The notes under the pieces are model-generated. The model was not told where the DNA came from and made no database searches. It was given only the letters and a program-made list of their open reading frames with translations. From positions 62,001-126,000 of the forward strand of contig NZ_BJYT01000006.1 in the NCBI RefSeq assembly GCF_007991655.1: 64,000 nt of DNA, written 5' to 3'. The stretch comes from Segetibacter aerophilus (GTDB lineage: Bacteria; Bacteroidota; Bacteroidia; Chitinophagales; Chitinophagaceae). A program made the position numbers and the translations under genes. The number at the start of each line of letters is the position of its first letter. The first letter of the stretch is position 1. Below, in pieces: positions 4,270-61,545 of the stretch.

Positions 4270-4401
4270 GTTGCGTCGCACACTTGTGCTTAAGAATAAT
4301 TAGAAGCTTGAGTTGGCCATAGCTTTAGATGAATTTGCGGCTTTTTCCTATTAACCGCAAAAGTTCAATTGTAATGAAAAAGTTCAAGAGTGCCACGCAA
4401 C
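4270..4401. repeat. Dispersed repeat, inverted pair (locus 1)
   Basis: Arm 4270-4291 (GTTGCGTCGCAC followed by ACTTGTGCTT) and arm 4380-4401 (ending GTGCCACGCAAC) are near-perfect reverse complements about 88 bp apart. The interior holds a smaller inverted repeat (TTTGCGG ... CCGCAAA, about 4334-4370). The element fills much of the 412-bp gap between tatC and the receiver gene. The same arm sequence recurs at eight other intergenic loci in this window. Confidence 0.8.
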
Positions 4402-4473
4402 AATGCGGCATGTAGATCTGGAGTCGGTATCAAAAAAAGTAAGAAAAGCAATACTGCCGGTAACTATAGCTAC

Positions 4474-4496
4474 AAAAAAAGCCGCTACTAGGCGGC
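4474..4496 (-). terminator. Rho-independent terminator of the receiver/kinase operon
   Basis: On the minus strand, GCCGC/GCGGC stem with a 6-nt loop followed by seven T, 25 nt beyond the stop of the receiver-ATPase gene. Confidence 0.85.
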
Positions 4497-4520
4497 TACA
4501 ACTATTTCGTTTTAAGATAA

Positions 4521-5675
4521 CTATTCGAAAGCGACAGCTGCGAGGTTTGAAACATTTAATGCCTGGTTTTCTGCAGACAATAAATTCACTTCCACCTGCG
4601 TACCTTCTCCCTCTGAAGTAATAATCTTTAGATCGCCGTTATTTAATTCGGTCAATCGTTTCACCAGGAACAAGCCTATTCCAAGGCCCTGTTGTTCGAA
4701 CCTTTTGCGGTTGAATTGTTTAAAGGGAGCAATATCAGCGAGGCTTAAAAGCTCGAACCCTCTTCCGCTGTCTTTTACTTCCAATCGATACTCTTCGCCG
4801 TTAAGCGCGCCTGTTACATAAACTTTTTCTCCGCGTTTTGAAAACTTGAGCGCGTTGTCCACCAGTTCTAGTATAATTCTTTGCAGGTATTCGCCACCCA
4901 TTCTAACTTCGGCAACTTCAAGATCGATTATTATGTCGCCTGCGCGGTTGTAAATTTCTTTTGACATGGTTTGCAATTCGGTCTTAACCTTTTGCACCCA
5001 ATTTGTTTTTGCTATGCCTTCAGTAAACATGCTGATTAATTCCGGGTACACTTCCGCCCTCCTGATTTCTTCGAACAGCATCAGATTCGCCAGCGAATGA
5101 TTTAAACGAAGCCCGGACTTTAATATCGAAGTAAGCAACTCCTGAACCTGCTGCTCATTGAATGAGTCTCTTGCATTCAACATCAGGTTCAACCCACCCA
5201 AAATTCCGTGAAGAGGAGTATTGAACTCATGATAATAGGTAGCAAACACGGTTGTATCCAGGTCGTGTTTTACTTTGGCGTATTCGCCGATAATTTTCTG
5301 CTGCCTTTTGAGTCGTGACTCAATGGCTTTTAGCAATTCTTTGTAAGTAAAGGGCTTCGTAAGATAATCGTCGGCACCCAAGTCCATTCCTTGCCTGATG
5401 TCATTCTTATCAACCCTGGCAGTCAAAAATATAAATGGAGTATTTTGAATCACCGAAGTTTTTCTAACGTACTCTAAAACTTTATAGCCATCCATTTTAG
5501 GCATCATCACATCGCAAACAATCAGGTGCGGTTTAAAATCAATCGCGTCTAGTACTCCTTGCTTGCCATTTGCTGACACCCTTACCAGGTATCCTTTAGC
5601 CTCGAGCAGCTCCTGTATGTTTTCGCGAATGTTTATTTCGTCTTCAATAACCTGTATTCTTGTTTGCTGCTCCAT
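4521..5675 (-). CDS. Response regulator receiver fused to histidine-kinase-like ATPase (hybrid)
   Basis: A 384-residue cytoplasmic protein. Residues 1-125 form a receiver domain with acidic pocket E11/D12, phospho-acceptor D55 (VCDVMMPKMDG), T85 and K107 (TKPF). It then has a dimerisation-type helix with H149 in YYHEFNTPLHG, and a GHKL ATPase domain with N-box ELVDNALKF, G1 DSGRGF and G2 GLGIGL. There is no DNA-binding output domain, so it probably acts as a relay or phosphorylation-controlled kinase and not as a transcription factor. It starts 13 nt after the stop of the multi-PAS kinase, its likely upstream phosphodonor, and is followed by a terminator. The true output is not visible here. 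Confidence 0.85.
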   Translation of the reverse strand: MEQQTRIQVIEDEINIRENIQELLEAKGYLVRVSANGKQGVLDAIDFKPHLIVCDVMMPKMDGYKVLEYVRKTSVIQNTPFIFLTARVDKNDIRQGMDLGADDYLTKPFTYKELLKAIESRLKRQQKIIGEYAKVKHDLDTTVFATYYHEFNTPLHGILGGLNLMLNARDSFNEQQVQELLTSILKSGLRLNHSLANLMLFEEIRRAEVYPELISMFTEGIAKTNWVQKVKTELQTMSKEIYNRAGDIIIDLEVAEVRMGGEYLQRIILELVDNALKFSKRGEKVYVTGALNGEEYRLEVKDSGRGFELLSLADIAPFKQFNRKRFEQQGLGIGLFLVKRLTELNNGDLKIITSEGEGTQVEVNLLSAENQALNVSNLAAVAFE

Positions 5676-5688
5676 GTAATAATTTTGT

Positions 5689-9228: not shown

Positions 9229-9318
9229 ATGGTATCAGTGACTGCATTTTTTTTTTGCAGCTCTCGCGCCGGCGGCACTGCCAATTGAACGAACTTTAGG
9301 GGAGTTTAGTATAGTATG

Positions 9319-10578
9319 CTACCGCAGTACTTTCATTTTGACCATTTCTATCCTGGTATCGCTTACGCTTAGGATTTCAAATTCAAACCGGTCAATTATA
9401 ATCCTTTCCTTATTACGGGGAATCGCTTCGTGGTTAGAGATGATGAACCCTGACAGTGTTTCGGATTCTGACACCGAAACGTCGAGGTCATACTTTTCAT
9501 TTAAATAATCAATTTCGAGGCGCCCGCTGAAAATATATTCATCTTCGCCCACCTCTTTTTCTACAAATTCTTCCACATCATACTCATCTTTTATTTCGCC
9601 GAAAATTTCTTCGAGCACATCTTCCATCGTTACGATGCCTGCTGTACCGCCAAACTCATCTACCACCCAGGCAATACTTTTTCGTTCTTTTGTGAATTTG
9701 TTAATCAGATCCGTTGCACTCATACTCTCAGGAACTGCGGGTATCGGTAGTAGTATAGATTGAAGGTCTGCAGGGTTTTTAAAAAGATCCAGCTGGTGAA
9801 TATAGCCGAGAATATTATCGATGTTATCGTTATAAATCACCAGTTTACTAAGCCGTGTATCGATCATATGTTGCCGCGCCTCTGCAACGCTTGTTTTTAT
9901 ATCAAAGCCTTCTACCTCAGTTCTTGGTACAAGGCACTGCCTGATCTTAACCATTGGTAAAGACAAGGCATTTTCGAAAAGCTCCGTATTTAGTTCCTGG
10001 TTTTCTTCGTCCTGGTCTTTATTCTGCTGGTAGAAGTGTTCGAGGTCGCCTTTTCCGAATGCTTCATTTCTATCATGCACTCTTACGTTAAAAACATATT
10101 TTAAAATCCATTCTGCAATGGTGACGAGGATAGAGGCAACCGGGAAAAAAATCCCGTAAAAAAACTTCGCTACCGGCGCAAAGAAGCTAAGCAAGGCATC
10201 GTTTCTTGCCCGAAAAATTGCTTTAGGAATAAATTCGCCGAAGAACAGGACTAGCAGGGTAGAAAGGACAGTATCGACAACAAGAATTACATAACTGTTA
10301 GTAATATGAAAATAGTCCCACAGGGGGCGAAGCAGGCTGCTTACGAGCAAACCATAAATAACTAGGAAGAAGTTGATACCAATCAGGCAAGTGCCGATAA
10401 ATCTTGCAGGCTCTTCCATGAACCGAGATAAAATAATTCCACTGAGTTTGCCTTGTTTCTTTTTTAGTTCAATGCTTAACTTATTGGCCGTAACAAAGGC
10501 TATTTCCATTCCTGCAAAAAAGCCTATGAAAATGATGGTAATGACAATGAGAAAAACAGTCAAATAAATGTTGTCCAT
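9319..10578 (-). CDS. CNNM/CorC (hemolysin-family) transporter-like membrane protein
   Basis: A 419-residue protein with the three-part layout of the family. There is an N-terminal DUF21 membrane domain (residues 1-185, four helices, FFAGMEIAFV signature), a pair of CBS domains (about 205-330, including VPRTEVEGFD and WVVDEFGGTAGIVTMEDVLEEIFGEI), and a C-terminal CorC_HlyC domain. Family members are linked to Mg2+/Co2+ efflux; in Bacteroidota a relative, GldE, is tied to gliding lipoproteins, so that alternative cannot be excluded. Stands alone, flanked by short gaps. Confidence 0.85.
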   Translation of the reverse strand: MDNIYLTVFLIVITIIFIGFFAGMEIAFVTANKLSIELKKKQGKLSGIILSRFMEEPARFIGTCLIGINFFLVIYGLLVSSLLRPLWDYFHITNSYVILVVDTVLSTLLVLFFGEFIPKAIFRARNDALLSFFAPVAKFFYGIFFPVASILVTIAEWILKYVFNVRVHDRNEAFGKGDLEHFYQQNKDQDEENQELNTELFENALSLPMVKIRQCLVPRTEVEGFDIKTSVAEARQHMIDTRLSKLVIYNDNIDNILGYIHQLDLFKNPADLQSILLPIPAVPESMSATDLINKFTKERKSIAWVVDEFGGTAGIVTMEDVLEEIFGEIKDEYDVEEFVEKEVGEDEYIFSGRLEIDYLNEKYDLDVSVSESETLSGFIISNHEAIPRNKERIIIDRFEFEILSVSDTRIEMVKMKVLR

Positions 10579-10750
10579 ATATTGAATTTACAGGAAACGG
10601 CTAGCAAAACGTTTGAAGCTGTAATAAAAAATATAGTGTTTCCGGTTCCAGCTATACCCTCCTAAATGTTTAAAGTTAGAAGAGTTTTATTTATTGCAAT
10701 ATAAGGAAGAAGATTTTTTGAGCCGGGCGGGGTAGCTACATCCATCTGTT

Positions 10751-10846
10751 GTTGCGTCGCACACTTGTACTTTCAATCTTTTAGCGGCAATAATACAATT
10801 TGAGGAAAGATGAACATAATACTTCAGTTGAACGGAGCGTCGCAAC
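10751..10846. repeat. Dispersed repeat, inverted pair (locus 2)
   Basis: Arm 10751-10772 (GTTGCGTCGCAC then ACTTGTACTT) and an inverted, partly decayed arm 10821-10846 (ending GGAGCGTCGCAAC) are separated by about 48 bp. This occupies the middle of the 326-bp gap (10579-10904) between the CNNM protein and proC. The rest of that gap is AT-rich with nothing else recognised. Confidence 0.75.
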
Positions 10847-10904
10847 AAATGCTGCTAATAGTTTATCCGTTAGTTTTAACATTTTTCGACCTGTTTTGCC
10901 TGAA

Positions 10905-11705
10905 CTACATATCTGTAGTAATCTTCTTATAACTCGCCGTTAACCCTTTTATTAGAGATGAACTAAAGCCCTGGTGTTCCATCTCATTCAGGCCTGCAAT
11001 CGTACAGCCTTTAGGCGTAGTTACTTTATCTATTTCCTGCTCGGGATGCGAGTTATTTCTTAGCAGTAATTCAGCGGCACCCTTTACTGTTTGAGCGGCA
11101 ATCAGTGAAGCGACGGAGGCACTAAAGCCAATCTCGATTCCGCCTTGAATGTTCGCCCGGATGTAGCGCATGGCATAGGCAGTACCGCAGGCGCCGAGCA
11201 CCGTCGCAGCGTCCATAAGCTTTTCATCAATGGTGATGGTTTTTCCCATTTGATCAAAAGTCTGCTCGAGGTACCTGATCTGTTCGGGAGTACCGTTTTG
11301 ATTGCAGAGGCAAGTCATGCTTTCACTGATTGCAATAGCGGTATTGGGCATGGCCCGAAAAACAGGCAATTGCTTTTCAATAATCGAATAGATATCTTTT
11401 ATATAAATACCTGTTACCACGGACACCAGCACATGCCTGCTTTCATCGAGTGTAGCTTTTATGCTGAGCAAAACTTCTTGCACCTGGAAAGGTTTTACCG
11501 CAATAATTATTATATCACCAAAAGCGGCGGCTTCATTGTTATCGTTGCTGATATTTACACCCCTTTCTTTAAGTGGTTGCAAGGTGTGAACATTGCGTTT
11601 GGTAATCATGACATTTGCAGGAGAGATGAACCCGTTTTTAATTAGTCCTTCTGCTATTGCAGTGCCTAAATTGCCTCCGCCAATAATGGAAATTTTATTA
11701 CTCAT
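10905..11705 (-). CDS. proC: Pyrroline-5-carboxylate reductase
   Basis: A 266-residue enzyme that performs the last step of proline synthesis, NAD(P)H-dependent reduction of 1-pyrroline-5-carboxylate. N-terminal Rossmann motif IIGGGNLGTAIAEGL; conserved AVKPFQVQEVL; FRAMPNTAIAISESMTCL; and the C-terminal dimer/active-site stretch DKVTTPKGCTIAGLNEMEHQG. The start is the ATG at 11705 (MSNKISIIGG), because the frame upstream only offers a TTG. The length fits the family. Confidence 0.94.
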   Translation of the reverse strand: MSNKISIIGGGNLGTAIAEGLIKNGFISPANVMITKRNVHTLQPLKERGVNISNDNNEAAAFGDIIIIAVKPFQVQEVLLSIKATLDESRHVLVSVVTGIYIKDIYSIIEKQLPVFRAMPNTAIAISESMTCLCNQNGTPEQIRYLEQTFDQMGKTITIDEKLMDAATVLGACGTAYAMRYIRANIQGGIEIGFSASVASLIAAQTVKGAAELLLRNNSHPEQEIDKVTTPKGCTIAGLNEMEHQGFSSSLIKGLTASYKKITTDM

Positions 11706-11810
11706 GCACAAAATTTTATGGGATGGTTACTCATTCAAGTTGCAATATCAGGAAAAGATTTTTTAGGGAGGCAAAGAAAACCAAGATGGATAAAGCCGGG
11801 AGAGTTGGGC

Positions 11811-18735: not shown

Positions 18736-19172
18736 AATAACATAATTTTGAGTTTATAAAAGTATTTGAGGTTGAACGACCCAGTGAAAATTAAGTTACA
18801 AAAGGTAGTGATTTTCGTGATGAAAGGAATAAAGAAAGGATAAATGTAATATTCCGATAGGGCAGCTTGCCAGGTTAGTTTTAGATACATAGCATTTTTT
18901 TTGTGAGTACGCGTACTGCTTCTTTGGTCATCATCGTTGCGTCGCAAGCACTTCAACTCTATATCATTTGGATAATTCAGCTTCTGGTGCTTAGCTTGCT
19001 TGTAGGTGCAATCGCTTTAAAGGATTAAAGGTTTTCTGGCCCTTTTTTTAGGTTTGCCAATGTTTGGTGGTTCTGTCTTTTTGTTAGAAATAATTTTTGT
19101 CCATCCTTGAATCTTATCGGTATTTTAGTTTCCTCAATTAATACAGACCAAACTAATAGAGACCAAACTACT
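18736..19172. other. 437-bp intergenic region with one half-site of the dispersed repeat
   Basis: Divergent gap between the GIN-domain gene and the lipoprotein gene. Contains the repeat half-site at 18936-18957, and a direct repeat AGACCAAACTA (twice within 19145-19170) just before the lipoprotein start. No credible ORF or clear promoter consensus was found; the open frames here are short and lack family resemblance. Confidence 0.5.
18936..18957. repeat. Dispersed repeat, single half-site (locus 3)
   Basis: GTTGCGTCGCA then AGCACTTCAACT, preceded by TCATCATC, which also flanks other copies (38880, 61525) in reverse complement. Confidence 0.65.
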
Positions 19173-20708: not shown

Positions 20709-20730
20709 AAGTACAAGAGTGCGACGCAAC
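20709..20730. repeat. Dispersed repeat, single half-site (locus 4)
   Basis: AAGTACAAGAGTGCGACGCAAC, split here as AAGTACAAGAG + TGCGACGCAAC, is the reverse complement of the consensus arm. It sits between the acyltransferase and Gfo/Idh genes; any partner arm upstream (about 20668) is too weak to call. Confidence 0.68.
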
Positions 20731-24640: not shown

Positions 24641-24700
24641 CTTGTGTCACTCTCTTGTACGGTAAATCACTATTCCACGAACTATACAAGAGTCCCATAG
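24641..24700. repeat. Dispersed repeat, degenerate inverted pair (locus 5)
   Basis: Arm 24642-24660 (TTGTGTCACTCTCTTGTAC) and inverted arm 24682-24698 (ATACAAGAGTCCCA core) within a compact 60-bp element in the 294-bp gap after mnmE. Confidence 0.6.
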
Positions 24701-25733: not shown

Positions 25734-26285
25734 ATGAAAAGAATATTCTTATTATTAATGCAGGCTTTATTGTTCGTAGCGGCGGCAACTGCACAAACAA
25801 CGAAAGTGATGTACACTTGTCCCATGCACCCGGAAGTGGAAATGTCTAAGCCGGGTAATTGTCCAAAGTGTGGGATGACTTTAAAGAAAAAAACAATTAA
25901 GGTCAATACACCAAAAAAGACAGTAAAGACAACTACTTTAAAATCGCCAGCAACTAAAAAGTCAGTAATTACAACTGAATCTTCTGCAGTTAACAAGGAG
26001 GCGCAGGAAGTTGTAAAGGATGAAACGATTGAGGCGCATAACCATAGTGAGATGAACATGAGCAATAGCGATGCTTCTAAGGCTGAACAGAAGGTAATGT
26101 ACTCTTGTCCTATGCACCCTGAAGTTCAATCAGGCAAACCAGGCAAATGTCCAAAGTGTGGTATGACTTTGATCAAAAAAACAATACAGGATACTAAGCC
26201 GGAAAGTTCAAGCAGCAACGGAACAAAGCAAGAAGGTAGCACTGATCTTGCGGATGAAAAGGTAAGCGGCAAATTAAATCTGTAA
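25734..26285 (+). CDS. Heavy-metal-binding-domain protein, possibly the detached N-terminus of the multicopper oxidase
   Basis: A 183-residue exported protein (signal peptide MKRIFLLLMQALLFVAAATAQ). Two copies of the heavy-metal-binding domain (HMBD) carry CPMHPEV then CPKCGMTL at about 30-50 and 123-145, joined by a Lys/Thr-rich linker with an HNHSEMNMS metal-binding patch. The TAA at 26283 ends it, but the reading frame continues: the next codons AGKT then VVYHLFVRDTTVNF belong to the first cupredoxin domain of the downstream oxidase. Thus this may be the N-terminal module of a single gene split by one nonsense codon. Alternatively a genuine separate small metal-binding protein. Confidence 0.78.
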   Translation: MKRIFLLLMQALLFVAAATAQTTKVMYTCPMHPEVEMSKPGNCPKCGMTLKKKTIKVNTPKKTVKTTTLKSPATKKSVITTESSAVNKEAQEVVKDETIEAHNHSEMNMSNSDASKAEQKVMYSCPMHPEVQSGKPGKCPKCGMTLIKKTIQDTKPESSSSNGTKQEGSTDLADEKVSGKLNL

Positions 26286-32506: not shown

Positions 32507-32612
32507 ATTTTATACCCTGCTCCACCGCTATAATTTCTCTTATTATTGGCAGTATGAACATTTTTATTTGCCTTAAATTCGCTTTTAGCGTTTTGACGTT
32601 AAATACAAATAC

Positions 32613-35027: not shown

Positions 35028-35192
35028 AGCCTGTACTTCAGCTGCATTTCCAGACATAGTTTCTTATGTTGTGAACTTGAGACGAATTTCGCTGTTATAG
35101 CAGGAATGAGGTTACTACTAAGAACGTTTTTAGGCAATTTTTCTTAGTATCGAAATATGCTTACAACAAACGTTTCTGCTAAAATATTCTCT

Positions 35193-36125: not shown

Positions 36126-36154
36126 CAAGTCTTCAGATCGCGCAAAAAATTCCC

Positions 36155-36943: not shown

Positions 36944-36957
36944 TTGTATAAAGAGTT

Positions 36958-37851: not shown

Positions 37852-37930
37852 AGTTAGTTGCAGTTTATTAAGCAGGTAAAATAGATGCTTTTGGCCGTAT
37901 TGAAAAAACTATTTAAAAGGCATCAAACCT

Positions 37931-38812
37931 TTAGATGCTAAATAGAATAACGTAGAGCCAAACAAAAGGAGTGGCAAGTATTAAACTATCAAAACGGTCA
38001 AGGAAACCGCCATGTCCCGGCATTAGTTGTCCGCTGTCTTTTACGCCCGCCATTCTTTTCAACTTGCTTTCAAGTAGATCACCGCTCGTACCAACAATTG
38101 CAGCGATCAAGGAAATGACAATAAGGGTTGCAATATCTTTTATATTAAAAAGATAATAACCGCCGAGGGTCACTACAGCAACGCAGAGAAGAGCACCGCC
38201 GCCGGTTCCCTCCCAGGTCTTTTTAGGCGAGATTTTTGAAAAAGGGGTTTTTCCGATAAAGGAGCCAACGATGTAAGCCATCGTATCATTTATCCAGATG
38301 GAAGCGATTAGAATAATAGGAATGATCCAACCGGTGTCTAAAAAAACATGAGAACCTTGCGCAACAAGACCGGTACTTCTAATACCAATCATCAAGCCCC
38401 AGCTAACGGAAATGTACAAGAGACCAAGAAGCGAGTAACCTAAAGTTTTCACGGAGAAATCTTTTGTAAGAAAAATGAGCCATATCGGAAGCACAACTCC
38501 CGAGACCAATAGCAATACTTTGCCGATGATGTGCAACGGTAGGTTGCTAATCGTATAGCCACCGCCTGCCATAAAAAGCATAAAAGCCCAACCTGCTATC
38601 ATTACTCCATATTTATGTATGGGAGTTATTTTTTGATATTCGGGATCTATTAAGCCTATTAATTTTTGATATTCTACCCAGCAGCCAAAGTGTACAACAG
38701 AAAACAAAATGAGGAAGCTCCAGTGATTCCAGAGTAGACCGGCCAGCATAATAATCACAAATACTACGGCAGTTGTCGCGCGTGTTTTAAAGGTCTGAAC
38801 GTTAAAGGCCAT
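37931..38812 (-). CDS. cdsA: Phosphatidate cytidylyltransferase (CDP-diacylglycerol synthase)
   Basis: A 293-residue, eight-helix membrane enzyme converting phosphatidic acid and CTP to CDP-diacylglycerol for phospholipid synthesis. The family signature is intact: SKLKRMAGVKDSGQ followed by PGHGGFLDRFDSL, together with SPKKTWEGTGGG. It is followed by the ABC pair and preceded by DUF2007 and CPBP genes on the same strand, a gene neighbourhood common in this phylum. Confidence 0.94.
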   Translation of the reverse strand: MAFNVQTFKTRATTAVVFVIIMLAGLLWNHWSFLILFSVVHFGCWVEYQKLIGLIDPEYQKITPIHKYGVMIAGWAFMLFMAGGGYTISNLPLHIIGKVLLLVSGVVLPIWLIFLTKDFSVKTLGYSLLGLLYISVSWGLMIGIRSTGLVAQGSHVFLDTGWIIPIILIASIWINDTMAYIVGSFIGKTPFSKISPKKTWEGTGGGALLCVAVVTLGGYYLFNIKDIATLIVISLIAAIVGTSGDLLESKLKRMAGVKDSGQLMPGHGGFLDRFDSLILATPFVWLYVILFSI

Positions 38813-38879
38813 GTTTATATAATTGAGCTAATGGGTTGGAAGTATCTAAAACGAGCGTAGCCGGTGAGGTTTGGTTGCG

Positions 38880-38900
38880 GTACAAGTGAGTGACACAACG
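38880..38900. repeat. Dispersed repeat, single half-site (locus 6)
   Basis: GTACAAGTGAGTGACACAAC followed by GATGATG: a degenerate reverse-complement arm with the same GATGATG flank seen at 61546. Lies in the 156-bp gap between DUF2007 and cdsA. Confidence 0.55.
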
Positions 38901-38968
38901 ATGATGAAAAGAGAACTACTGTTAGCAACCAAAAAAATTTCAGAGTTATTTGCAAACACTACGGGTAA

Positions 38969-39178
38969 CTAATTCAGTAATCCTTTGTCTACCAAGTGTC
39001 GGGCTATATCTTTTAATAAAACGGGAACATAAACTTCTATGTCGCCAAAATTAAGGTAGCTGCTATCCTGCTTGTTCACCAGCAAAACAGGTACGCTGTT
39101 TTCCTCGAGCATTCCCTTTATAATACTGGCCTGAGGGAGGTTGCGGGTAGCGTAAAGAAGATGCCATTTATGTGTCAT
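38969..39178 (-). CDS. DUF2007 domain protein (putative signal-transducing protein)
   Basis: A 69-residue protein. The opening LLYATRNLPQASIIKGMLEENSVPVLLVN fits the DUF2007 fold, a small alpha/beta domain related to GlnB-like folds. It begins 20 nt after the CPBP gene stop, so cotranscription is likely. Function unknown. Confidence 0.85.
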   Translation of the reverse strand: MTHKWHLLYATRNLPQASIIKGMLEENSVPVLLVNKQDSSYLNFGDIEVYVPVLLKDIARHLVDKGLLN

Positions 39179-39198
39179 ACTTATTATCGTAAAAGCGA

Positions 39199-40125
39199 TT
39201 ATGCAATATAATCATTATCATCACTGGTTACAATTGAAGGCAATACTTCATCACTTTTCTTCTTAATGAAGTAAATAATGCCAATGCCAATGATGAGACT
39301 CACAAAGGCGCCATACAGGGGGACAGAATAATCATCGCCGGCAAGTTTCTTTATTGTTTCGCTACGGTTCGCATAATAAACAGATAAAACGGCGAAGGCA
39401 TTATTTAGAAAATGAATAAGAATAGTATACCACAGGTTTCGGGTTACATAATAAACAACGCCGAGAATTAGGCCTAGAGTAAAAATGGGTAGTATTTTAA
39501 AGAATGTGCCATGCAGCAAAGCAAACACAACAGACGACACGACTATAGCAAGCCATGGTCGGTGGCTAATGCGGAGCAGCGCCTTTTGCAATGAACCTCT
39601 AAAAAACAATTCTTCACCAATTGCCGGCAGGAGGGCCATAATAAATAGGTTAATCAACAAGTCTCCAAAGTTTTTCATCTGCAGGAAGACTTGTAGTGCA
39701 CGGTTATACATCGCCTCCATTTCTAAAAGCGACTTTTGAAGCCCACCGAAGTTAATCTTGCCATTTATTTCACCCAACCAACCGATAAAGGGCTGAATTG
39801 TACATAACAGCAGGAATGCCGCTCCGAATAAGATGATTGAAGCATCTTTTTGAATACCTATATAAGGAAGCGACTTCGGAGAGGAGTAATAACCAAAGAA
39901 TAATGAAGGCAGTATAAAAGATATTATTGAACCTGCCAATTGAGCCCATTTGAACTTGTCGATGACATCTGGTGAAACAACTGCACTCTTGTTAAGCAGC
40001 ACGCCTGCAATGTCGCCAAAAAAGAAGGTGGAAACAGCAGAATTCAAAATAAGAAATCCACCTGCCAGCCCCAAAAAAGCCAGAAACTGCACTGCCGGAG
40101 GTTGATATTTTAAGTAAGTCTTCAT
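39199..40125 (-). CDS. CPBP family intramembrane glutamic endopeptidase
   Basis: A 308-residue, roughly eight-helix protein with the full CPBP active site: EELFFRG (EExxxR), FALLHG (FxxxH) and HFLNNAF (HxxxN). Family members cleave prenylated or bacteriocin-like substrates within the membrane; the substrate here is unknown. First gene of the CPBP-DUF2007 pair upstream of cdsA. Confidence 0.9.
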   Translation of the reverse strand: MKTYLKYQPPAVQFLAFLGLAGGFLILNSAVSTFFFGDIAGVLLNKSAVVSPDVIDKFKWAQLAGSIISFILPSLFFGYYSSPKSLPYIGIQKDASIILFGAAFLLLCTIQPFIGWLGEINGKINFGGLQKSLLEMEAMYNRALQVFLQMKNFGDLLINLFIMALLPAIGEELFFRGSLQKALLRISHRPWLAIVVSSVVFALLHGTFFKILPIFTLGLILGVVYYVTRNLWYTILIHFLNNAFAVLSVYYANRSETIKKLAGDDYSVPLYGAFVSLIIGIGIIYFIKKKSDEVLPSIVTSDDNDYIA

Positions 40126-40252
40126 AAATCAGCTACGAATAAGAATGTAAGTTTGCGTTTTAAAAAATAGTCGTGCAAGATACAGGATGCAACTTATAAA
40201 CAACAGGTTGCAACGTTGTGTTGGCAGGCTTTAAAGGATTTTTACAAGTATC

Positions 40253-41290
40253 ATGATCACTATCGGCAACATACAATTAACAGGCTTTCCGCTTCTACTT
40301 GCTCCCATGGAAGACGTAAGCGATCCTCCATTTAGGGCAGTGTGTAAAGAAAACGGAGCGGACCTTATGTACACTGAATTTATTAGCAGCGAGGGCCTGA
40401 TAAGAGACGCTATTAAGAGCCGCAAGAAGCTTGATATTTTTGATTATGAAAAGCCGATAGGCATACAAATTTTTGGTGGTGACGAGGACAGCCTTGCCAT
40501 GGCTGCAAAAATTGTTGATGTAACAAATCCTGATTTACTTGATATCAACTTTGGTTGTCCTGTAAAAAAAGTTGCCTGTAAAGGTGCCGGGGCCGGCGTG
40601 CTGAAAGACATAGATTTGATGGTTCGCCTAACCGATGCAGTTGTAAAATCTACTAGCCTGCCTGTTACAGTTAAGACCCGTCTTGGCTGGGATGAACAGA
40701 CAAAGAATATAGAGGAAGTTGCCGAGCGTTTGCAAGACGTAGGGATAAAAGCATTAGCTATCCATGGCCGTACACGTAGCCAGATGTACAAGGGTGAAGC
40801 CGATTGGTCGCTTATCGCGAAAGTTAAAAACAATCCCCGCATTCAAATACCCATTTTTGGTAATGGCGATATAGATAGTCCGCAAAAAACGGTAGAGTAC
40901 AAGAACCGCTACTGCGTGGACGGTATTATGATTGGTCGTGCTGCCATCGGTTATCCTTGGATTTTTCGCGAGATCCATCATTATATGCAAACGGGCGAGC
41001 TACTTCCTTCGCCGACAGTGGAGGAAAGGGTAGAGGTAAGTAAAAATCATTTGCGCAAGTCAGTCGAATGGAAAGGGCCGGTTGTAGGTATCAATGAAAT
41101 GCGCAGGCATTATTCAAATTACCTAAAAGGCTTACCTGGAATCAAAGAATTCAGAAACAAACTCGTGACTTTAAAAGAAGTAGAAGAGGTAGAAGCAGTA
41201 TTGGATGAAGTTCAGGAACACTATCAAGGTTTTGAAGTGGAAAGGGCACCAATTGTGTTAGAGAATTATCATGAGCACTGCGCGGTGTAA
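40253..41290 (+). CDS. dusB: tRNA-dihydrouridine synthase B
   Basis: A 345-residue flavoprotein reducing uridine to dihydrouridine in tRNA. TIM-barrel with LLAPMEDVSDPPFR, the catalytic-loop DINFGCPVKKVACKGAGAG (conserved Cys), AIHGRTRSQMYKG and GIMIGRAAIGYPWIF. Complete. Transcribed away from the CPBP gene across a 127-bp divergent gap. Confidence 0.95.
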   Translation: MITIGNIQLTGFPLLLAPMEDVSDPPFRAVCKENGADLMYTEFISSEGLIRDAIKSRKKLDIFDYEKPIGIQIFGGDEDSLAMAAKIVDVTNPDLLDINFGCPVKKVACKGAGAGVLKDIDLMVRLTDAVVKSTSLPVTVKTRLGWDEQTKNIEEVAERLQDVGIKALAIHGRTRSQMYKGEADWSLIAKVKNNPRIQIPIFGNGDIDSPQKTVEYKNRYCVDGIMIGRAAIGYPWIFREIHHYMQTGELLPSPTVEERVEVSKNHLRKSVEWKGPVVGINEMRRHYSNYLKGLPGIKEFRNKLVTLKEVEEVEAVLDEVQEHYQGFEVERAPIVLENYHEHCAV

Positions 41291-41487
41291 GAACTGGGAT
41301 TAGAAAATTGGATTTAAAGATTGTTTTGATAGTCGGCTTTGGAATACTCCTTTACACTCGTCGCGTCGCCTCGTGTGCTCTTGCCTTTTATTCGTCGCTT
41401 AGTTAAAATCTTCAATACTCTATATGATCTACTCAAACCGCCGGCCTTAGTTCCTGTGAACCCAAAAAGTCCAACCCTTTATACTTT

Positions 41488-46630: not shown

Positions 46631-46740
46631 GTTTGTGTCACACTCTTGTACTTTGAACTTTATGGCAGCTTTTTTTAAAAACTCCAAAAGCTGTCGCACC
46701 GCGCCGAATAAAGAACGAACTGCCCAAGAGTGCGACGCAA
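46631..46740. repeat. Dispersed repeat, inverted pair (locus 7)
   Basis: Arm 46631-46653 (GTTTGTGTCACACTCTTGTA + CTT) and inverted arm 46719-46740 (ending GAGTGCGACGCAA), about 65 bp apart, within the 406-bp gap before tyrS. An internal GCTGTCGCACCGCGCC echoes the arm. The rest of the gap holds the tyrS -7 element and nothing else recognised. Confidence 0.75.
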
Positions 46741-46841
46741 GAAAAGTCATATCGAAGCGATTGCCGACTACCAAATTAATCCCAGCAACGGTCCTCCATC
46801 GCCATCGGCTGTTTTTGATAGCATCAATACAGTATCTGCTT

Positions 46842-46849
46842 TACATTTG
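46842..46849 (+). promoter_or_regulatory. tyrS: Probable -7 element of the tyrS promoter
   Basis: TACATTTG matches TAnnTTTG, 20 nt upstream of the chosen tyrS ATG; supports the start at 46869 and argues against a longer upstream frame. Confidence 0.5.
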
Positions 46850-46868
46850 CCGAAGTCAAAAAAATGCC

Positions 46869-48155
46869 ATGAATTTAATTGAAGAGTTACGGTGGAGAGG
46901 TATGATACAGGACATAATGCCTGGAACTGAAGAACAGCTTTTGAAAGAAATGACGACAGGATATATCGGCTTCGACCCGACCGCCGATAGCCTGCATATA
47001 GGAAGCCTCGTGCCGATTTTACTACTCGTCCACCTACAAAAAGCGGGGCATAAACCGGTTGCACTGGTTGGCGGAGCAACAGGAATGGTGGGCGACCCAA
47101 GCGGAAAAAGTGAAGAAAGAAACCTCTTAAGTGAAGACATTTTGCAACGCAATGTTGCGGGCGTAAAAAAGCAGCTGGAACAATACCTCGACTTTGAACC
47201 GTCGAAACCTAATGCTGCTGAGATGGCCAATAACTATGACTGGTTTAGAGACTTTTCGTTCCTGGATTTTATAAGAGATGTTGGCAAGCACATCACCGTT
47301 AATTATATGATGGCGAAAGACAGTGTAAGAAAAAGGCTTGAGGGAGAAACTGGAATGAGCTTCACCGAGTTTACTTACCAACTGGTGCAGGGCTACGATT
47401 TTTACTATCTATACAGCAATAAGAATTGCAAGCTGCAAATGGGCGGAAGCGACCAGTGGGGAAATATCGTAACAGGCACAGAACTCGTTCGGCGTAAAGC
47501 AGGCGGAGAAGCCTTTGCCTTTACCTGTCCGCTAATCACCAAAGCCGATGGAAGCAAGTTTGGCAAAAGCGAAAAAGGAAACGTGTGGCTTGATCCTGCA
47601 AAAACATCTCCTTACGAGTTTTACCAGTTTTGGCTAAATACTACTGATGCTGATGCTGCGCGTTACACAAAGATTTTTACTTTCCTCACTCAGCAGGAAG
47701 TCGACGATGTTCTAGGCGCTCACAGTGGCAACGAGCATCAGCGCGGCCTTCAAAAAAGACTTGCCGAAGAAGTGACTGCTTTTGTACATGGCAAAGAAAA
47801 TTTGGAAAAGGCAGTTCGTGCAACTGAACTTTTATTTAGCAAAGACACGATGCAAATAATTGCTTCACTATCTGCAAAAGAATTGGACGCTACTTTAACA
47901 GGAGTTCCTGCAGTTGAAGTCAGCAAAGAACACCTTACCACTACAAATCCTGACGTAGTTACGTTTTTAGCAGAAACCGGCATTTTACCAAGTAAAGGTG
48001 AAGCCAAGAAAATGATACAAGGCGGCGGAATAAGTTTTAATAAACAAAAAGTTACAGACCTTTCTAAGAAAGTTGATCTATCACAGTTTATAAATGAAAA
48101 ATATTTGTTTGTACAAAAAGGCAAGACAAATTACTATTTGGTAAAAGTGTCCTAG
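46869..48155 (+). CDS. tyrS: Tyrosine--tRNA ligase
   Basis: A 428-residue class I synthetase charging tRNA-Tyr. HIGH-type motif LHIGSLVP near residue 40, substrate motifs [11 protein letters not shown] and [15 protein letters not shown]-type loop KFGKSEKGN, and a C-terminal S4 RNA-binding domain ([14 protein letters not shown]). The frame is open for 78 more codons upstream, but those cross the repeat element and -7 box, so [11 protein letters not shown] at 46869 is the start. Confidence 0.96.
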
Positions 48156-50200: not shown

Positions 50201-50255
50201 AGGTTCGTTTTAAAATATTTTTATAAGCCCGGCAATATAAATCTATTAAAATTTT

Positions 50256-50275
50256 GTTGCGTCGCACACTTCTAC
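50256..50275. repeat. Dispersed repeat, single half-site (locus 8)
   Basis: GTTGCGTCGCAC followed by ACTTCTAC, between divergent SGNH hydrolase and glutathionylspermidine-synthase-like genes. No partner arm was found. Confidence 0.65.
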
Positions 50276-55681: not shown

Positions 55682-55691
55682 CGAACAATCT

Positions 55692-57044
55692 ATGAAAATG
55701 AAAAAAATATCTATAGCTGTACTGGTTCTTTTCCATTCAACGTTGTTTGCACAAACAACCGTGCAAAGAGATCCTGAAATTGAGCAAATGGTAAAAGAGG
55801 TATCTGCAGACTCAATCCAATCTTACATTAAATCCCTGGTCGCTTTTGGTACCCGAAATACATTAAGCACTCAAAAAGATCCAAAGCGTGGTATTGGTGC
55901 TGCGAGAAACTGGATCCTAAGCAGGTTTAATCAGTTTGCTAAAAATTCAGGTGGAAGGCTAACAGCTATTATCGACACTACGACTTATGCCCCCGATGGC
56001 AAAAGAGTTGACACAGCCATCAATTTAGGAAATGTAGTAGCCACTCTAAAAGGCACCGACCCTAATGATAAACGTATTTTTCTTGTAAGCGGCCACATGG
56101 ATAATATGCGCACAAGTGTAATGGATCGCACGGGGGATGCCCCCGGAGCAAATGACGACGGTAGTGGTACAGCAGCTGTAATGGAATGCGCGAGAATTAT
56201 GAGCGGTCATTCGTTTCCGGCAACTATCATTTTCATTACAGTAGCAGGGGAAGAACAGGGTTTGTTGGGCGCAACATTTATGGCAAATAAAGCCAAAAAA
56301 GAAAATTGGAATATTGAAGCGGTTTTGAACAATGATATCATGGGAAGCAATAATAGCAGCGAAACCAATATTATTGATAACACAAGAATTAGGGTCTTTA
56401 GTGAGGGACTACCTGCATACGAGCTTGACAAAAATGGTAAAATGATCAGGCAGTTGGGATTGGAAAATGACGGTAAGGCGAGACAGTTAGCCCGCTACGT
56501 AAAAGAAGTGGGTGAGCGGTATGTTGATAATCTGAACGTAGTAATGGTCTACCGCAACGACCGTTTCCTTCGTGGCGGTGATCATACTCCTTATGTTGAA
56601 AATGGTTTTGCTGCTGTACGCATTACAGAAATGAATGAGAACTATTATCATCAGCATCAAAATGTAAGAAAGGAAAATGGAATTCAATATGGCGATCTTA
56701 TGGAGTTTATGGATTTTGAATACCTGCGGAAGAACACAGCGATGAACCTTTGTAATCTTGCCAACCTCGCTAAAGGTCCTTCGATGCCGCAAGAGGTAAA
56801 AGTGGATGTAAAGAATTTAACTAACTACACCATTCTAAATTGGAAACAATCAGCCTCCGGAAAGACTAAAGGTTATTATGTGCTTGTCCGCGAAACCACG
56901 TCTCCTACCTGGCAGAAGAAAATATTTACTGCTGATACCAATATCAAATTGCCCTATTCAAAAGACAATTACTTTTTTGCAGTGCAATCCGTATCAGAAA
57001 ACGGAAATGAAAGCTTGCCGGTAGTACCAGCAGTAGGTAGGTAA
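55692..57044 (+). CDS. Secreted M28 family metallopeptidase (second copy)
   Basis: A 450-residue exported zinc peptidase with signal peptide (MKMKKISIAVLVLFHSTLFAQ). Di-zinc ligands in SGHMDNMRT, GANDDGSGT, GEEQGLLGA and NNDIMG, with a late GGDHTPYVENGFAAVRI. After the peptidase core, a C-terminal fibronectin III-like domain (about 365-450, VDVKNLTNYTILNWK) replaces the PA domain found in the M28 protein at 1208. Likely hydrolyses peptides at the cell surface. Confidence 0.9.
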   Translation: MKMKKISIAVLVLFHSTLFAQTTVQRDPEIEQMVKEVSADSIQSYIKSLVAFGTRNTLSTQKDPKRGIGAARNWILSRFNQFAKNSGGRLTAIIDTTTYAPDGKRVDTAINLGNVVATLKGTDPNDKRIFLVSGHMDNMRTSVMDRTGDAPGANDDGSGTAAVMECARIMSGHSFPATIIFITVAGEEQGLLGATFMANKAKKENWNIEAVLNNDIMGSNNSSETNIIDNTRIRVFSEGLPAYELDKNGKMIRQLGLENDGKARQLARYVKEVGERYVDNLNVVMVYRNDRFLRGGDHTPYVENGFAAVRITEMNENYYHQHQNVRKENGIQYGDLMEFMDFEYLRKNTAMNLCNLANLAKGPSMPQEVKVDVKNLTNYTILNWKQSASGKTKGYYVLVRETTSPTWQKKIFTADTNIKLPYSKDNYFFAVQSVSENGNESLPVVPAVGR

Positions 57045-57056
57045 AAAGCAATCTTT

Positions 57057-57103
57057 TAAAGGAGGAAATGCAGCTATTAATAACTGTATTTCCTCCTTTT
57101 TTG
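57057..57103 (+). terminator. Terminator of the M28 peptidase gene
   Basis: AAAGGAGGAAATGCAG/CTGTATTTCCTCCTTT stem (one mismatch) with a 10-nt loop, then TTTGTTT, starting 13 nt past the stop. Confidence 0.85.
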
Positions 57104-57193
57104 TTTATTCGATTTTTAACATCTATAGTTATTAATCCTCATGTAAGCCCTACCTTTTGGCAGTACTTTTGCCGGCTACAGGCAAAAATTAAA

Positions 57194-58072
57194 ATGAATT
57201 TTACTGCTTTTACTTTTCTCATCGTGTTGTCTTATTTTTCAACAATTACTTCTTGTAACAAGGGAAACAAAGCAGGTGAAACAAAAGACTCAGCAGTTGC
57301 CAAGTTAGATATGAAAAATGTTTCTTACGGAACGGATACGGCGCAAAAGCTAGATTTTTATTTACCGGCAGCCAGAGATACAACGAATACAAAAGCGATT
57401 CTTTTTATACACGGTGGAAGTTGGGTCGGAGGTGACAAAAGTGAGTTTAATGACGCGATAGCGGCCATCCATGCAAAACTTCCTGACTATGCTATATTTA
57501 ATATGAATTATCGTTTGGTCAATAAAAGTGCAAGGGGGCTTACAGACCAGATGAGCGACATAAAAAGCGCTTTGAACTTTATTGACAGCCATGCCGATGA
57601 GTATAAAATAAACGCAAATAAGATTTGTCTGATTGGCGCGAGCGCCGGTGCGCACTTGGCCTTGCTTCACGCTTATAAAAATAATAACGAAGGAAAAATT
57701 AAGGCCGTGGTTGATTTGTTCGGTCCAACAGACTTAAAGGACCTTTATAGCAATCATCCTGTTCCTCAACAAGTACGATATGTACTTACAAGTTTATTAG
57801 GAAAGAGCCTTGCATCCGGTGCGAGCATTTACCAGCAGGCAAGTCCCGTAAACTTCGTAAGTGCACAAACAGTTCCTACTTGTATATTTCATGGAACCAA
57901 TGATATAATTGTTCCGATAGCTCAATCAAACGCACTAAAAGCTAAATTGCTGGCAAATAATGTAAAGGTTCAGATGACCTCTTATGCATCTGAAGGACAC
58001 GGCTGGTACGGTAAAAACCTGGCAGATACTTATAGCAAGACGGTTGAATTCATAAAGGAAAATGTCCACTAA
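57194..58072 (+). CDS. Lipoprotein alpha/beta hydrolase (esterase-like)
   Basis: A 292-residue exported hydrolase with a lipobox (TITSC near residue 22), so lipid-anchored. HGGSWVGG oxyanion motif of the hormone-sensitive-lipase type, nucleophile GASAGAH, and the acid/His in GTNDIIVP and EGHGWYG. The open frame starts 42 codons earlier across a terminator, so the ATG at 57194 is chosen. Immediately followed by the ElaA-like gene (TAA then ATG). Confidence 0.86.
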   Translation: MNFTAFTFLIVLSYFSTITSCNKGNKAGETKDSAVAKLDMKNVSYGTDTAQKLDFYLPAARDTTNTKAILFIHGGSWVGGDKSEFNDAIAAIHAKLPDYAIFNMNYRLVNKSARGLTDQMSDIKSALNFIDSHADEYKINANKICLIGASAGAHLALLHAYKNNNEGKIKAVVDLFGPTDLKDLYSNHPVPQQVRYVLTSLLGKSLASGASIYQQASPVNFVSAQTVPTCIFHGTNDIIVPIAQSNALKAKLLANNVKVQMTSYASEGHGWYGKNLADTYSKTVEFIKENVH

Positions 58073-58522
58073 ATGCAGGCAATAACATGGGTGTGCAAAT
58101 TTTTCGATGAATTGAGTCCGCATGAATTATATGCAATTATAAAATTGCGTAACGAAGTGTTTGTCGTCGAGCAAAATTGCGTGTTCCAGGACGCTGATAA
58201 CAAAGATCAGCAATGCTACCACTTAAGTGGAACTATCAATAACGAACTAGTTGCTTATGCCCGATTGGTCCCCGGTGGCGTCTCTTATCCACAAATCTCC
58301 ATTGGACGCGTCATTACTTCGCCTGCTCACCGTAAGACCGGTTTTGGAAAATCTTTGATGACAAAGGCCATAGAAGAATGCGACCGGCTCTTTGGAAAAC
58401 AACCCATCCAAATAGGAGCGCAGTTATACTTGAAAGGTTTTTACCAGTCTTTTGGTTTTAAGCAAATAAGCGATATGTACCTCGAGGATGATATCCCACA
58501 TATAGAAATGCTACGGGAGTAA
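58073..58522 (+). CDS. ElaA-like GNAT acetyltransferase
   Basis: A 149-residue GNAT-fold N-acetyltransferase. Opening ...LRNEVFVVEQNCVFQDADNKDQ and the acetyl-CoA loop ISIGRVITSPAHRKTGFGKSLM are typical of ElaA. The start codon follows the hydrolase stop directly, so the two are translationally coupled. Substrate unknown. Confidence 0.9.
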   Translation: MQAITWVCKFFDELSPHELYAIIKLRNEVFVVEQNCVFQDADNKDQQCYHLSGTINNELVAYARLVPGGVSYPQISIGRVITSPAHRKTGFGKSLMTKAIEECDRLFGKQPIQIGAQLYLKGFYQSFGFKQISDMYLEDDIPHIEMLRE

Positions 58523-58681
58523 CTACTCTTACTTCGAAATAGTAAAACATTAATCTACTATGGACCGATGAGTTATTGTTGCTTATTTAAAGAAAATAAA
58601 AAGGCTTCTTAAAGATCAAAACAAGTTGTAATATTTGGCTTTTTTCACTTCTTCATTTTCCGTTTTTCTCTCTCTTACCCT

Positions 58682-58689
58682 TATCTTTG
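58682..58689 (+). promoter_or_regulatory. atpB: -7 element of the atp operon promoter
   Basis: TATCTTTG matches TAnnTTTG exactly, 13 nt before the atpB ATG; preceded by a pyrimidine-rich stretch with no TTG at the usual spacing. Confidence 0.55.
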
Positions 58690-58702
58690 CGCAAAATTTA
58701 GG

Positions 58703-59857
58703 ATGGGTATGTCAGCAAAATGCGTGAAATCTTTTCTGGTGGCGGCTTTCAGTCTCTCCATATTATTATTATCTAATATGGCCTTTGGTCAGCATGGAGC
58801 TGAGGTGACTGAAAAAGGTACTACAGTACATGACGAGGAAAAGATGGATGCGGCAAAGATTATTATGGAACACGTGCTCGATAACCACGAGTTTCATTTG
58901 GCGGAAATAGGAGGTCATACTGTTTCTATCCCCTTACCTATCATTTTATATTCTCCACAAAGAGGTTTCAATGCCTTTATGTCTTCCAGGTTCGAACATG
59001 GCCACGCGCAATATGGTGGGTATAAAATGGTGAACGATAAGGTCGTTCCAGTAGATGAGAACGGGAACGTTGATGAGTCGGTTAGTGTTATGGACTTCTC
59101 GCTTACTCGGAACGTCGTTCAAATGTTTATAGCCGTTCTTCTTTTATTGCTGGTAATGATTAATGTGGCTAAAAAGTATAAAGCTAATGGTACCTCGAAA
59201 GCACCCTCTGGCTTTCAGAATGCTGTTGAGCCCGTTATTACTTTTGTTAGAGACGAAGTAGGCAAACCTAACCTTGGAAGTAAATACGAGAAGTATATGC
59301 CTTACCTCCTTAGCGTTTTCTTTTTTATACTAATCAATAATTTAATAGGGTTGATCCCTGGGTCTGCAAACGTAACAGGCAACATTGCATTTACCCTTGT
59401 TCTGGCTTTCATTTCAATGATTGTTATTCTTATTAGCACCAATAGTCATTTCTGGGGTCATATATTCTGGCCTCCGGGAGTACCATTTTTTGTAAAAGTT
59501 ATTTTAATACCGGTAGAATTTGCAGGGATATTTATTAAGCCAATTGCTTTAATGATACGTCTTTTTGCAAATATGGTAGCTGGTCACATCGTAATCATTT
59601 GTTTCATTGCACTCATATTTATATTTGGCGCAATGAATATTGGAGCTGGTCTTGGTTTTTCACCACTATCTCTTGCTTTCACGGTGTTCATTTATTTCAT
59701 TGAAATTCTGGTCGCTTTTATCCAGGCGTTCATATTCACCAACCTGACTGCAGTATTTATTGGCCAGGCTTTTGAAACCGGGCATGTGGATCATAATGAG
59801 CAACCTCACGATCCACATCCGACGCATGATCACAGAGAAAAAGAGTACGCTTTATAA
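58703..59857 (+). CDS. atpB: ATP synthase F0 subunit a
   Basis: A 384-residue membrane subunit forming the proton half-channels next to the c-ring. An N-terminal extension with a signal-like hydrophobic start (about 1-30) and a periplasmic region up to about 130, common in Bacteroidota, precedes five to six helices. The essential Arg is in ALMIRLFANMVAGH. The tail is His-rich (GHVDHNEQPHDPHPTHDHRE). First gene of atpB-E-F-H-A. Confidence 0.94.
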   Translation: MGMSAKCVKSFLVAAFSLSILLLSNMAFGQHGAEVTEKGTTVHDEEKMDAAKIIMEHVLDNHEFHLAEIGGHTVSIPLPIILYSPQRGFNAFMSSRFEHGHAQYGGYKMVNDKVVPVDENGNVDESVSVMDFSLTRNVVQMFIAVLLLLLVMINVAKKYKANGTSKAPSGFQNAVEPVITFVRDEVGKPNLGSKYEKYMPYLLSVFFFILINNLIGLIPGSANVTGNIAFTLVLAFISMIVILISTNSHFWGHIFWPPGVPFFVKVILIPVEFAGIFIKPIALMIRLFANMVAGHIVIICFIALIFIFGAMNIGAGLGFSPLSLAFTVFIYFIEILVAFIQAFIFTNLTAVFIGQAFETGHVDHNEQPHDPHPTHDHREKEYAL

Positions 59858-59872
59858 TTTTTTTTATCATAA

Positions 59873-60157
<285 letters not shown>

Positions 60158-60182
60158 TCAGCCGGTTTAAGCACAAACTATT

Positions 60183-60217
60183 TACTGCATCTTAAGCACA
60201 GGGCGGAGGATGCAGTA
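60183..60217 (+). other. Hairpin in the atpE-atpF gap
   Basis: TACTGCATC/GATGCAGTA perfect 9-bp stem around a GC-rich loop. No T-run follows, so it is not a standard terminator; it could slow decay of or stabilise the atpE message, which must be made in excess. The following 80 bp repeat CAAATTT words. Confidence 0.5.
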
Positions 60218-60289
60218 TTTTAAAATTTGAAATCGGCTTTTCTCTGTCCTTTCAAATTCCCAAATTTTCAAATTTTTCAAATTTCTTAA

Positions 60290-60784
60290 ATGGAACTGTT
60301 ATCACCCGGCATCGGTTTAATATTCTGGACGTTCATTGCTTTTTTGATTGTTTTATTTGTTTTAAGAAAGTTTGCCTGGAAACCTATTTTGTCTTCTCTT
60401 AAAGAAAGAGAAACAAGTATTGCAGCTGCTATTTCTTCTGCTGCCGATATGAAGGCAGAAATGGCTGCGATGAAAAGCGAAAATGAAGTATTGTTAGCGC
60501 AAGCCCGCGAGGAAAGAGCTATTATGATAAAGGAGGCAAAAGAGACAGGCACTAAAATGATCAGCGAGGCAAAGGAAAAAGCCAGAGTAGAATATGATCG
60601 TATATTAGCTGAAGCTCAAATTGCAATTCAACAACAAAAAAATGCTGCCCTTACTGATGTAAAAAACCAGGTTGGCAAGCTTGTGATCGAGGTTAGTGAA
60701 AAAGTGCTTCGTCGTGAGTTAGCGAATAGGGCAGAACAGGAAGGATTTATCAGACAACAGGCAGAAGCTGTAAAACTTAATTAA
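60290..60784 (+). CDS. atpF: ATP synthase F0 subunit b
   Basis: A 164-residue peripheral-stalk subunit: one N-terminal helix (IGLIFWTFIAFLIVLFVL) followed by FAWKPIL and a long charged coiled-coil rich in Ala, Glu and Lys. Typical length and layout. Confidence 0.95.
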   Translation: MELLSPGIGLIFWTFIAFLIVLFVLRKFAWKPILSSLKERETSIAAAISSAADMKAEMAAMKSENEVLLAQAREERAIMIKEAKETGTKMISEAKEKARVEYDRILAEAQIAIQQQKNAALTDVKNQVGKLVIEVSEKVLRRELANRAEQEGFIRQQAEAVKLN

Positions 60785-60789
60785 CACAA

Positions 60790-60851
60790 TAGCCGCAAGC
60801 TATAAGCCACAAGCCGCAAGCTTGATGCTTACAGCCGATAGCTTAAAGCTA
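60790..60851. repeat. AGCCGCAAGCT-type repeat in the atpF-atpH gap
   Basis: AGCCGCAAGCT (60791-60801) and AGCCGCAAGCTT (60812-60823), then partly palindromic ACAGCCGATAGCTTAAAGCT. Intergenic palindromic repeat of a kind often seen in this phylum, filling the 75-bp gap inside the operon. Confidence 0.6.
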
Positions 60852-60859
60852 AAAAATAT

Positions 60860-61423
60860 ATGCTTAATCCACGTTTAGCTGGGCGGTATGCAAAAAGTCT
60901 TGTAGACCTTTCAACGGAAAGAAATGAGTTGGAAGCGGTATACAACGACATGCAATATTTGAAGGCAGTTTGTAAAGCAAGCAGACCTTTTGTTGCGTTG
61001 TTGAAAAGTCCTGTTATTCCAATTGATAAAAAAAGTCATGCTCTGACAGCAGTAACAACTGGAAAAATAAGCACGTTAACAGCTGCTTTTAACCAGTTGC
61101 TCATTAACAAAAACAGGGAGTTTTATCTGCCTGAGATCGTTGATGCTTTTATAGATCAGTACAACGTTATTAAAGGTATTAATAAGATAAAGCTGACTAC
61201 AGCTGCTCCTTTAAGTGATGAGGTAAAGAACGAGATTTTAAGTAAGATTAAAACTCAAACTCCTATTGAGAGAATAGAGTTGGAGGCTGTAGTGAACGAA
61301 GATCTGATTGGAGGATTTGTTTTGGAGTATAATAACAATTTGGTTGACGCAAGTATTCAGCGCGAGTTGAGAGACATCAAAAAGCAGTTCGATAAGAACA
61401 TGTATGTGCAACAGATCAGGTAG
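60860..61423 (+). CDS. atpH: ATP synthase F1 subunit delta
   Basis: A 187-residue subunit linking the stalk to F1. N-terminal six-helix domain (NPRLAGRYAKSLVDLS) and C-terminal domain with EDLIGGFVLEYNNNLVDASIQRELRDIKK, the family signature. Complete. Confidence 0.94.
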   Translation: MLNPRLAGRYAKSLVDLSTERNELEAVYNDMQYLKAVCKASRPFVALLKSPVIPIDKKSHALTAVTTGKISTLTAAFNQLLINKNREFYLPEIVDAFIDQYNVIKGINKIKLTTAAPLSDEVKNEILSKIKTQTPIERIELEAVVNEDLIGGFVLEYNNNLVDASIQRELRDIKKQFDKNMYVQQIR

Positions 61424-61524
61424 GTGGTGGAAGGTTTGATTGTTTTAGTGGCTAATTCTGGTTTTCCGAAAGTTGTACTAAAAACAATTAAACAATGCCG
61501 CAAATTGAATAATGTGGCGGATAT

Positions 61525-61545
61525 AGTACAAGGGTGCGACGCAAC
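61525..61545. repeat. Dispersed repeat, single half-site (locus 9) inside the atp operon
   Basis: AGTACAAGGGTGCGACGCAAC (AGTACAAGG + GTGCGACGCAAC) followed by GATGATGAT, in the 209-bp gap between atpH and atpA. A weak partner (AGTTGTACT at about 61471) may exist. Confidence 0.68.

Follow-up and report, generated by a model that had tools for sequence, protein, structure and literature searches.

The 64-kb window (the whole stretch of DNA analysed here) carries copies of a dispersed repeat that is specific to Chitinophagaceae, and the 20-bp core of this repeat is held nearly constant between two species at loci where its flanks have drifted. A repeat family at nine loci had been predicted from the window's letters, and it is real: the core GTTGCGTCGCACNCTTGTAC (19 bases, up to three mismatches) has nine matches in the window, against 0.01 expected from shuffles. 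On the sequence comparisons below, we give about an even chance to the reading that we prefer, namely that a family-specific repeat spread by copying and that its core would be a putative recognition site for a protein, kept intact once inserted. The usual view of small dispersed repeats is that they are mobile relics in decay; in this family, the central 20 bp are nearly constant while the surrounding unit is scrambled. If confirmed, the core would offer a defined, testable recognition site for a putative protein, and a route to that protein, in a family for which genetics is scarce.

Core sites in the window and the longer unit

With the A and B alternatives described below allowed for, the degenerate core GTTGYGTCRCWCNCTTGTAC occurs at ten sites in the window (Table 1). 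All ten are intergenic according to a codon-statistics gene caller, as the original prediction had stated; one site is overlapped by a naive ORF with a GTG start (46635-48155), whose called start lies downstream of the site. The thirteen half-sites first proposed correspond to these ten core sites, two diverged variants (10821 and 18936) and, at 24682, only a trace. Three of the four proposed inverted pairs are good, although in one of these the partner has diverged; the fourth is weak, its partner being a trace. The diverged unit at 18897..18968 has counterparts in the gaps of loci L083 and L084. The gap of the 20711 core is filled in L083 and in S. koreensis (L098) and empty in L084 and L085. 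Separately from this family, the window holds a 116-bp direct repeat (25802-25917 and 26090-26205, 74% identical) within adjacent small ORFs.

Table 1. Core sites, units and diverged copies of the repeat in the window
Position	Strand	Core-site start	Feature	Basis	Setting
4270..4289	+	4270	Core A form, left arm of inverted pair	Core match	Gap between tatC (3251-4108, -) and response-regulator/histidine-kinase gene (4521-5675, -)
4382..4401	-	4382	Core A form, right arm paired with the 4270 core, 112 bp away	Core match	
10714..10770	+	10751	Unit: T-run, GCCGGGC, exact core A (10751-10770)		Gap between genes 9319-10578 (-) and 10905-11711 (pyrroline-5-carboxylate reductase family, -)
10821..10844 (approximate)	-		Diverged inverted copy of GTTGCGACGCTCCGTTCAAC type, partner of 10751	Direct reading	
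18897..18968	+		Diverged unit, core variant GTTGCGTCGCAAGCACTTCAAC	Profile match, E=0.0026 (18936)	
20711..20730	-	20711	Exact core A, single		Gap before GFO/IDH/MocA oxidoreductase gene
24641..24660	+	24641	Core B, one mismatch	Core match	
near 24682			Degraded inverted-partner trace TATACAAGAG of the 24641 core		
38880..38899	-	38880	Exact core B, single	Core match	
46632..46651	+	46632	B-like core TTTGTGTCACACTCTTGTAC, left arm of inverted pair		Divergent gap
46722..46741	-	46722	Core A, right arm paired with the 46632 core		
50219..50275	+	50256	Unit: T-rich arm, GCCCGGC, core A (50256-50275)		Divergent gap before glutathionylspermidine-synthase family gene
61526..61587	-	61526	Unit with core A (61526-61545), single		About 60 bp before ATP synthase alpha/beta family gene

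The core lies within a longer, asymmetric unit that measures about 75 bp. Counted from the first core base, the unit has a T-run at -37 to -30, CC.GC (CCGGC) at -27 to -23, pyrimidines at -15 to -12 and CATC at -4 to -1; the core spans 0 to 19 and is followed by T-rich sequence to +33 and by CAGC near +37. Genomes G326 and G014 show the same plan, and so do those in which the repeat occurs just one to four times. The CATC/TCATC flank and the T-rich upstream arm seen in the window are parts of this longer unit. The core does contain the near-palindrome TGCGTCGCA, which has a one-base centre; it is not a hairpin, and covariation of its TGCG/CGCA ends was rejected because the outermost pair is lost in the B form. 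RNAalifold found no consensus fold on either strand (102 copies from the window's own genome, G000, and 79 from G326), and Rfam gave no match.

In G000 and G326, the information in the upstream arm peaks at intervals of about 10.5 bp (p 0.006 and 0.02 in a crude permutation test), a spacing that would suit a protein bound along one side of the helix; the periodicity was not seen in the 16 copies of G014. The core itself carries 31.5 bits, compared with the 14.4 needed to specify 535 sites, and this excess points to an origin as the recognition sequence of a mobile element more than as the site of a host regulator.

Range, placement and arrangement of the copies

The window's genome is that of a Segetibacter-like member of Chitinophagaceae, one of the window's proteins having its nearest match in Segetibacter. 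The count against chance that the original prediction had proposed as a check gave 535 core matches in G000 and one for the reversed pattern. Across the phylum, the core was detected in 6 of 297 genomes, all of them Chitinophagaceae, and in none of the 286 genomes outside the family. Copy number within the family ranges from 0 to 1249, the highest value belonging to G155 (degenerate core, at most one mismatch); about 78 copies are present in G007, and genomes of the window's own genus have 3 (G008) to 625 at two mismatches. This spread within one genus argues against an essential host function and counts against our preferred reading. The core exists in two forms, A (GTTGCGTCGCAC) and B (GTTGTGTCACTC), both of which are found in each of two 3' dialects, CTTGTAC and CTTCARC. 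The dialect ending in CTTCAAC/CTTCAGC is present in 52 of 120 family genomes, with up to 316 copies in one, and reversed controls gave none. Plasmids and named phages had no core match, and 2.9 million viral contigs yielded 28 stretches, on which grounds a plasmid or phage origin was rejected. A literature search for the core sequence found no relevant paper.

Placement was assessed in a sample of 1.64 Mb of the window's genome (~28%), holding 219 sites, with a simple codon-statistics gene caller. As in the window, the sites are dispersed and sometimes in inverted pairs, and 217 of the 219 are intergenic, although non-coding DNA makes up 14.5%. Of these, 152 lie in co-directional, 35 in divergent and 30 in convergent gaps, roughly in proportion to total gap length, and orientation relative to co-directional genes is 80:72. 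Promoters, operators and terminators would not be distributed in this way, and a promoter or terminator role was rejected on gap type and gene direction. Along contig C1 there is no strand bias.

Close copies in G326 are 82-87% identical over 100-125 bp, which indicates that the repeat spread as a longer segment, by copying. Most units are single; about one-sixth of those in the window's genome lie in inverted pairs of less than 260 bp. Such pairs measure 44-250 bp across and combine A with B in 20 of 25 cases below 260 bp (G000 and sister species G006 together). In Segetibacter they are mostly convergent, and 18 of 21 convergent pairs join A with B. Between the paired units of G326 (L213, L208, L209), some spacers contain simple repeats, for example GAACAATGAACAGTGAAC or GTCGACCGTTGACCGTCGAC, which add another layer of repetition. 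The sampled DNA is nearly free of IS copies, and no autonomous parent sharing the ends of the repeat was found in it; what lies inside convergent pairs up to 3.5 kb apart is ordinary genes, so that composite elements between convergent units were rejected. The longest ORFs in these intervals are not recognisable transposases, with the exception of one Y1 gene in the copy-dense G155. The largest repeat cluster in 864 kb of G000 is a group of 290-736 bp repeats with 78-84% identity (C1:456519-463830).

Close neighbours are placed in opposite orientation. Within 2.5 kb, the ratio of opposite to same orientation is 45:0 in the window's genome, 27:0 when pairs below 260 bp are left out, and 50:2 when weaker profile matches are included; it is 29:8 at 2.5-4 kb and about even beyond 4 kb. 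The sister species G006, many of whose loci are shared with G000, gives 23:1 below 2.5 kb. In G326 the rule holds below 700 bp (25:0) and is weak at 0.7-4 kb (36:24). Duplicative inversion is not supported as the cause, strand switches of the enclosed genes being no commoner near close pairs. Same-direction units within about 2.5 kb thus appear to be lost or selected against; recombination between direct copies, with loss of DNA, or the mode of action of a bound protein may be the reason.

Constancy of the core at orthologous loci

The constancy of the core was followed at 18 sampled sites of the window's genome that are syntenic with G006, a single species pair whose aligned DNA is ~79% identical. 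Fifteen of the 18 sites are common to both species, on the same strand and within three mismatches; of the other three, one is a decayed copy with five mismatches, and at two the gap in G006 is empty (C1:284308 and C1:592025). Over the 15 ortholog pairs the core is 94% identical, with 2 changes in 240 at its 16 hard positions, and the A or B form agrees in 15 of 15. The 50-bp flanks of the same orthologs are 71% and 60% identical, compared with 55% and 50% for unrelated copies. A neutral relic would lose core and flanks alike; since the core was held while the flanks drifted, it is probably recognised and kept after insertion, by a putative protein still reading it.

Within the window, the core at 38880..38899 is identical at 20 of 20 positions to that at the orthologous place in G006, the same gap in G009 holds a C-like variant, and the unit at 61526..61587 likewise has an orthologous copy in G006. 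Between genera, 7 of 20 loci are shared, against 4 of 27 control gaps, these being small numbers. One unit in the araD-araA gap is common to two genera (G299, L319:6515; G000, C1:649392), in the same place and orientation and in the A form. The proposed comparison of orthologous gaps revealed presence and absence at the level of whole gaps; no exact empty or filled site with a target duplication was seen in the available species, as their intergenic flanks are too diverged to define boundaries. Two parts of the window, 32531-41419 and 55884-64000, adjoin in contig C3 of G006, the second reversed and ~13 kb of other DNA between them, which reflects a rearrangement or inversion.

Origin of the repeat and known systems

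REP/REPIN elements moved by a RAYT (Y1 HUH) transposase were the explanation put forward in the original prediction, and the repeats are indeed short, intergenic, present in many copies and sometimes arranged as inverted dimers, in genomes some of which encode Y1 proteins. The search for a Y1 gene flanked by the same arms went against it: none of the three Y1 transposase genes of the window's genome has a good core copy within 1.5 kb, and a scan of 31 Y1 loci in the family gave a core density not above background. In G155, where copies occur every ~4 kb, one Y1 gene lies between two units, as chance predicts. Copies and Y1 genes do not go together either, with ~78 copies and no Y1 gene in G007, 1249 and one in G155, and no copies and four Y1 genes in G322; G299 also carries copies without any Y1 gene. 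A RAYT-like gene at the start of contig C4 of G000 (L033:1-2100) has around it a ~160-nt direct repeat of its own, unrelated to the present family and present at least five times. Because flanked Y1 genes are missing, Y1-less genomes carry the repeat, this RAYT-like gene has a different repeat, no stem-loop is formed and most copies are single, REP/RAYT membership is excluded as far as testable, and we regard the explanation as highly improbable. At a gap that is empty in G000 (C1 ~291750), G006 carries an inserted IS200-like Y1 transposase gene (L225:7100-7620; C42 ~87.1-87.6 kb).

In our preferred reading, a unit would have spread by copying of a longer segment, in the manner of a MITE and through an unseen enzyme, and the core would be the recognition site of a putative DNA-binding protein whose continuing action on copies already inserted holds the core while the flanks drift. 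Neither the mobilising enzyme nor the binding protein was found in this analysis. The two alternatives that had been named beside REP elements, MITEs of an unseen element and a family of protein-binding sites, each contribute a part of this reading. More tentatively, the repeats might form a family recognition system, in which a putative protein would read the 20-bp core and the phased flanks at hundreds of intergenic sites, kept by selection or by an uptake/recombination drive, with close sites required or tolerated only in opposite orientation and with genus-level dialects of the core.

That the repeats are plain MITEs or solo-TIR relics left by a transposon that is extinct or unseen, now functionless and with a core identical through recent spread, seems unlikely to us. 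The inverted pairs, often of A with B, the extended homology among young G326 copies, the patchy copy number and the two loci gained or lost relative to G006 all suit such relics, but old orthologous copies keep their core with flanks near saturation, the sampled genome is nearly IS-free, and among the longest ORFs between convergent units up to 3.5 kb apart only one, a Y1 gene in G155, is recognisably a transposase. A DNA uptake or self-recognition signal, kept by biased uptake and recombination and lost where the system was lost, we consider a decidedly unlikely explanation. Restriction to a family, the dialects, the fixed core with free flanks, the phased upstream T-run and the neutrality to gene orientation speak for it. 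ComEC, encoded in 20 of 22 genomes, does not discriminate, as it is equally present in copy-free genomes; a type IV pilus ATPase (PF00437) stayed below the family cut-off in 22 of 22. The core is also long and almost never within genes, copies spread as longer segments, and in the literature searched no paper dealt with uptake signals of this phylum.

We place at a similarly low level the possibility that a nucleoid-associated or domain-organising protein works on inverted pairs of these sites. Core constraint, the lack of gene-direction bias, helical phasing and the opposite orientation of neighbours at distances that allow looping (2.5-4 kb) agree with it; against it, G008 of the same genus manages with its three copies, isolated single units are common, opposite neighbours are weakly favoured at 0.7-4 kb in G326, and 31.5 bits are far above what a host regulator needs. 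Least probable of all is an RNA-level element (terminator, riboswitch or small RNA): a few units come after the T-tail of an intrinsic terminator (L083, L084), but neither strand has a consensus fold or an Rfam match, and gap type and gene direction are not preferred.

Among described systems, REP/REPIN elements with RAYT include the GTAG and CGTC REP superfamilies, and CGTC REPs also lack a dedicated transposase (PMC3733652). Like REP/REPIN elements, the repeat is short, intergenic, present in hundreds of copies and patchy among species, with inverted dimers favouring heterodimers (PMC3733652). It differs in having no stem-loop and no GTAG- or CGTC-tagged stem, in its asymmetric ~75-bp, mostly single unit, in sharing one core across genera and in the constraint on that core at orthologous loci. 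With MITEs and solo terminal inverted repeats it shares a non-coding, dispersed nature, inverted pairs of a ~75-bp arm and spread by copying; unlike them, most copies are one-armed, no parent was found in the sampled DNA, and the core stays while the rest of old copies drifts.

Chromosome-organising sites such as matS, parS and those of SlmA/Noc are protein sites that occur in many copies and are maintained by selection, as the present core may be, but here copy number swings from 0 to 1249 in one family and close neighbours alternate in orientation. The DNA uptake sequences, DUS of Neisseriaceae and USS of Pasteurellaceae, are restricted to families, come in dialects and have phased T-rich flanks. 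Compared with these, the core is about twice as long and almost absent from coding DNA, shared homology is longer and no type IV pilus machinery was detected; what the repeat has in common with them is its restriction to one family, its dialects, the conservation of a core beside phased T-rich flanks, the occurrence of inverted pairs and neutrality to orientation.
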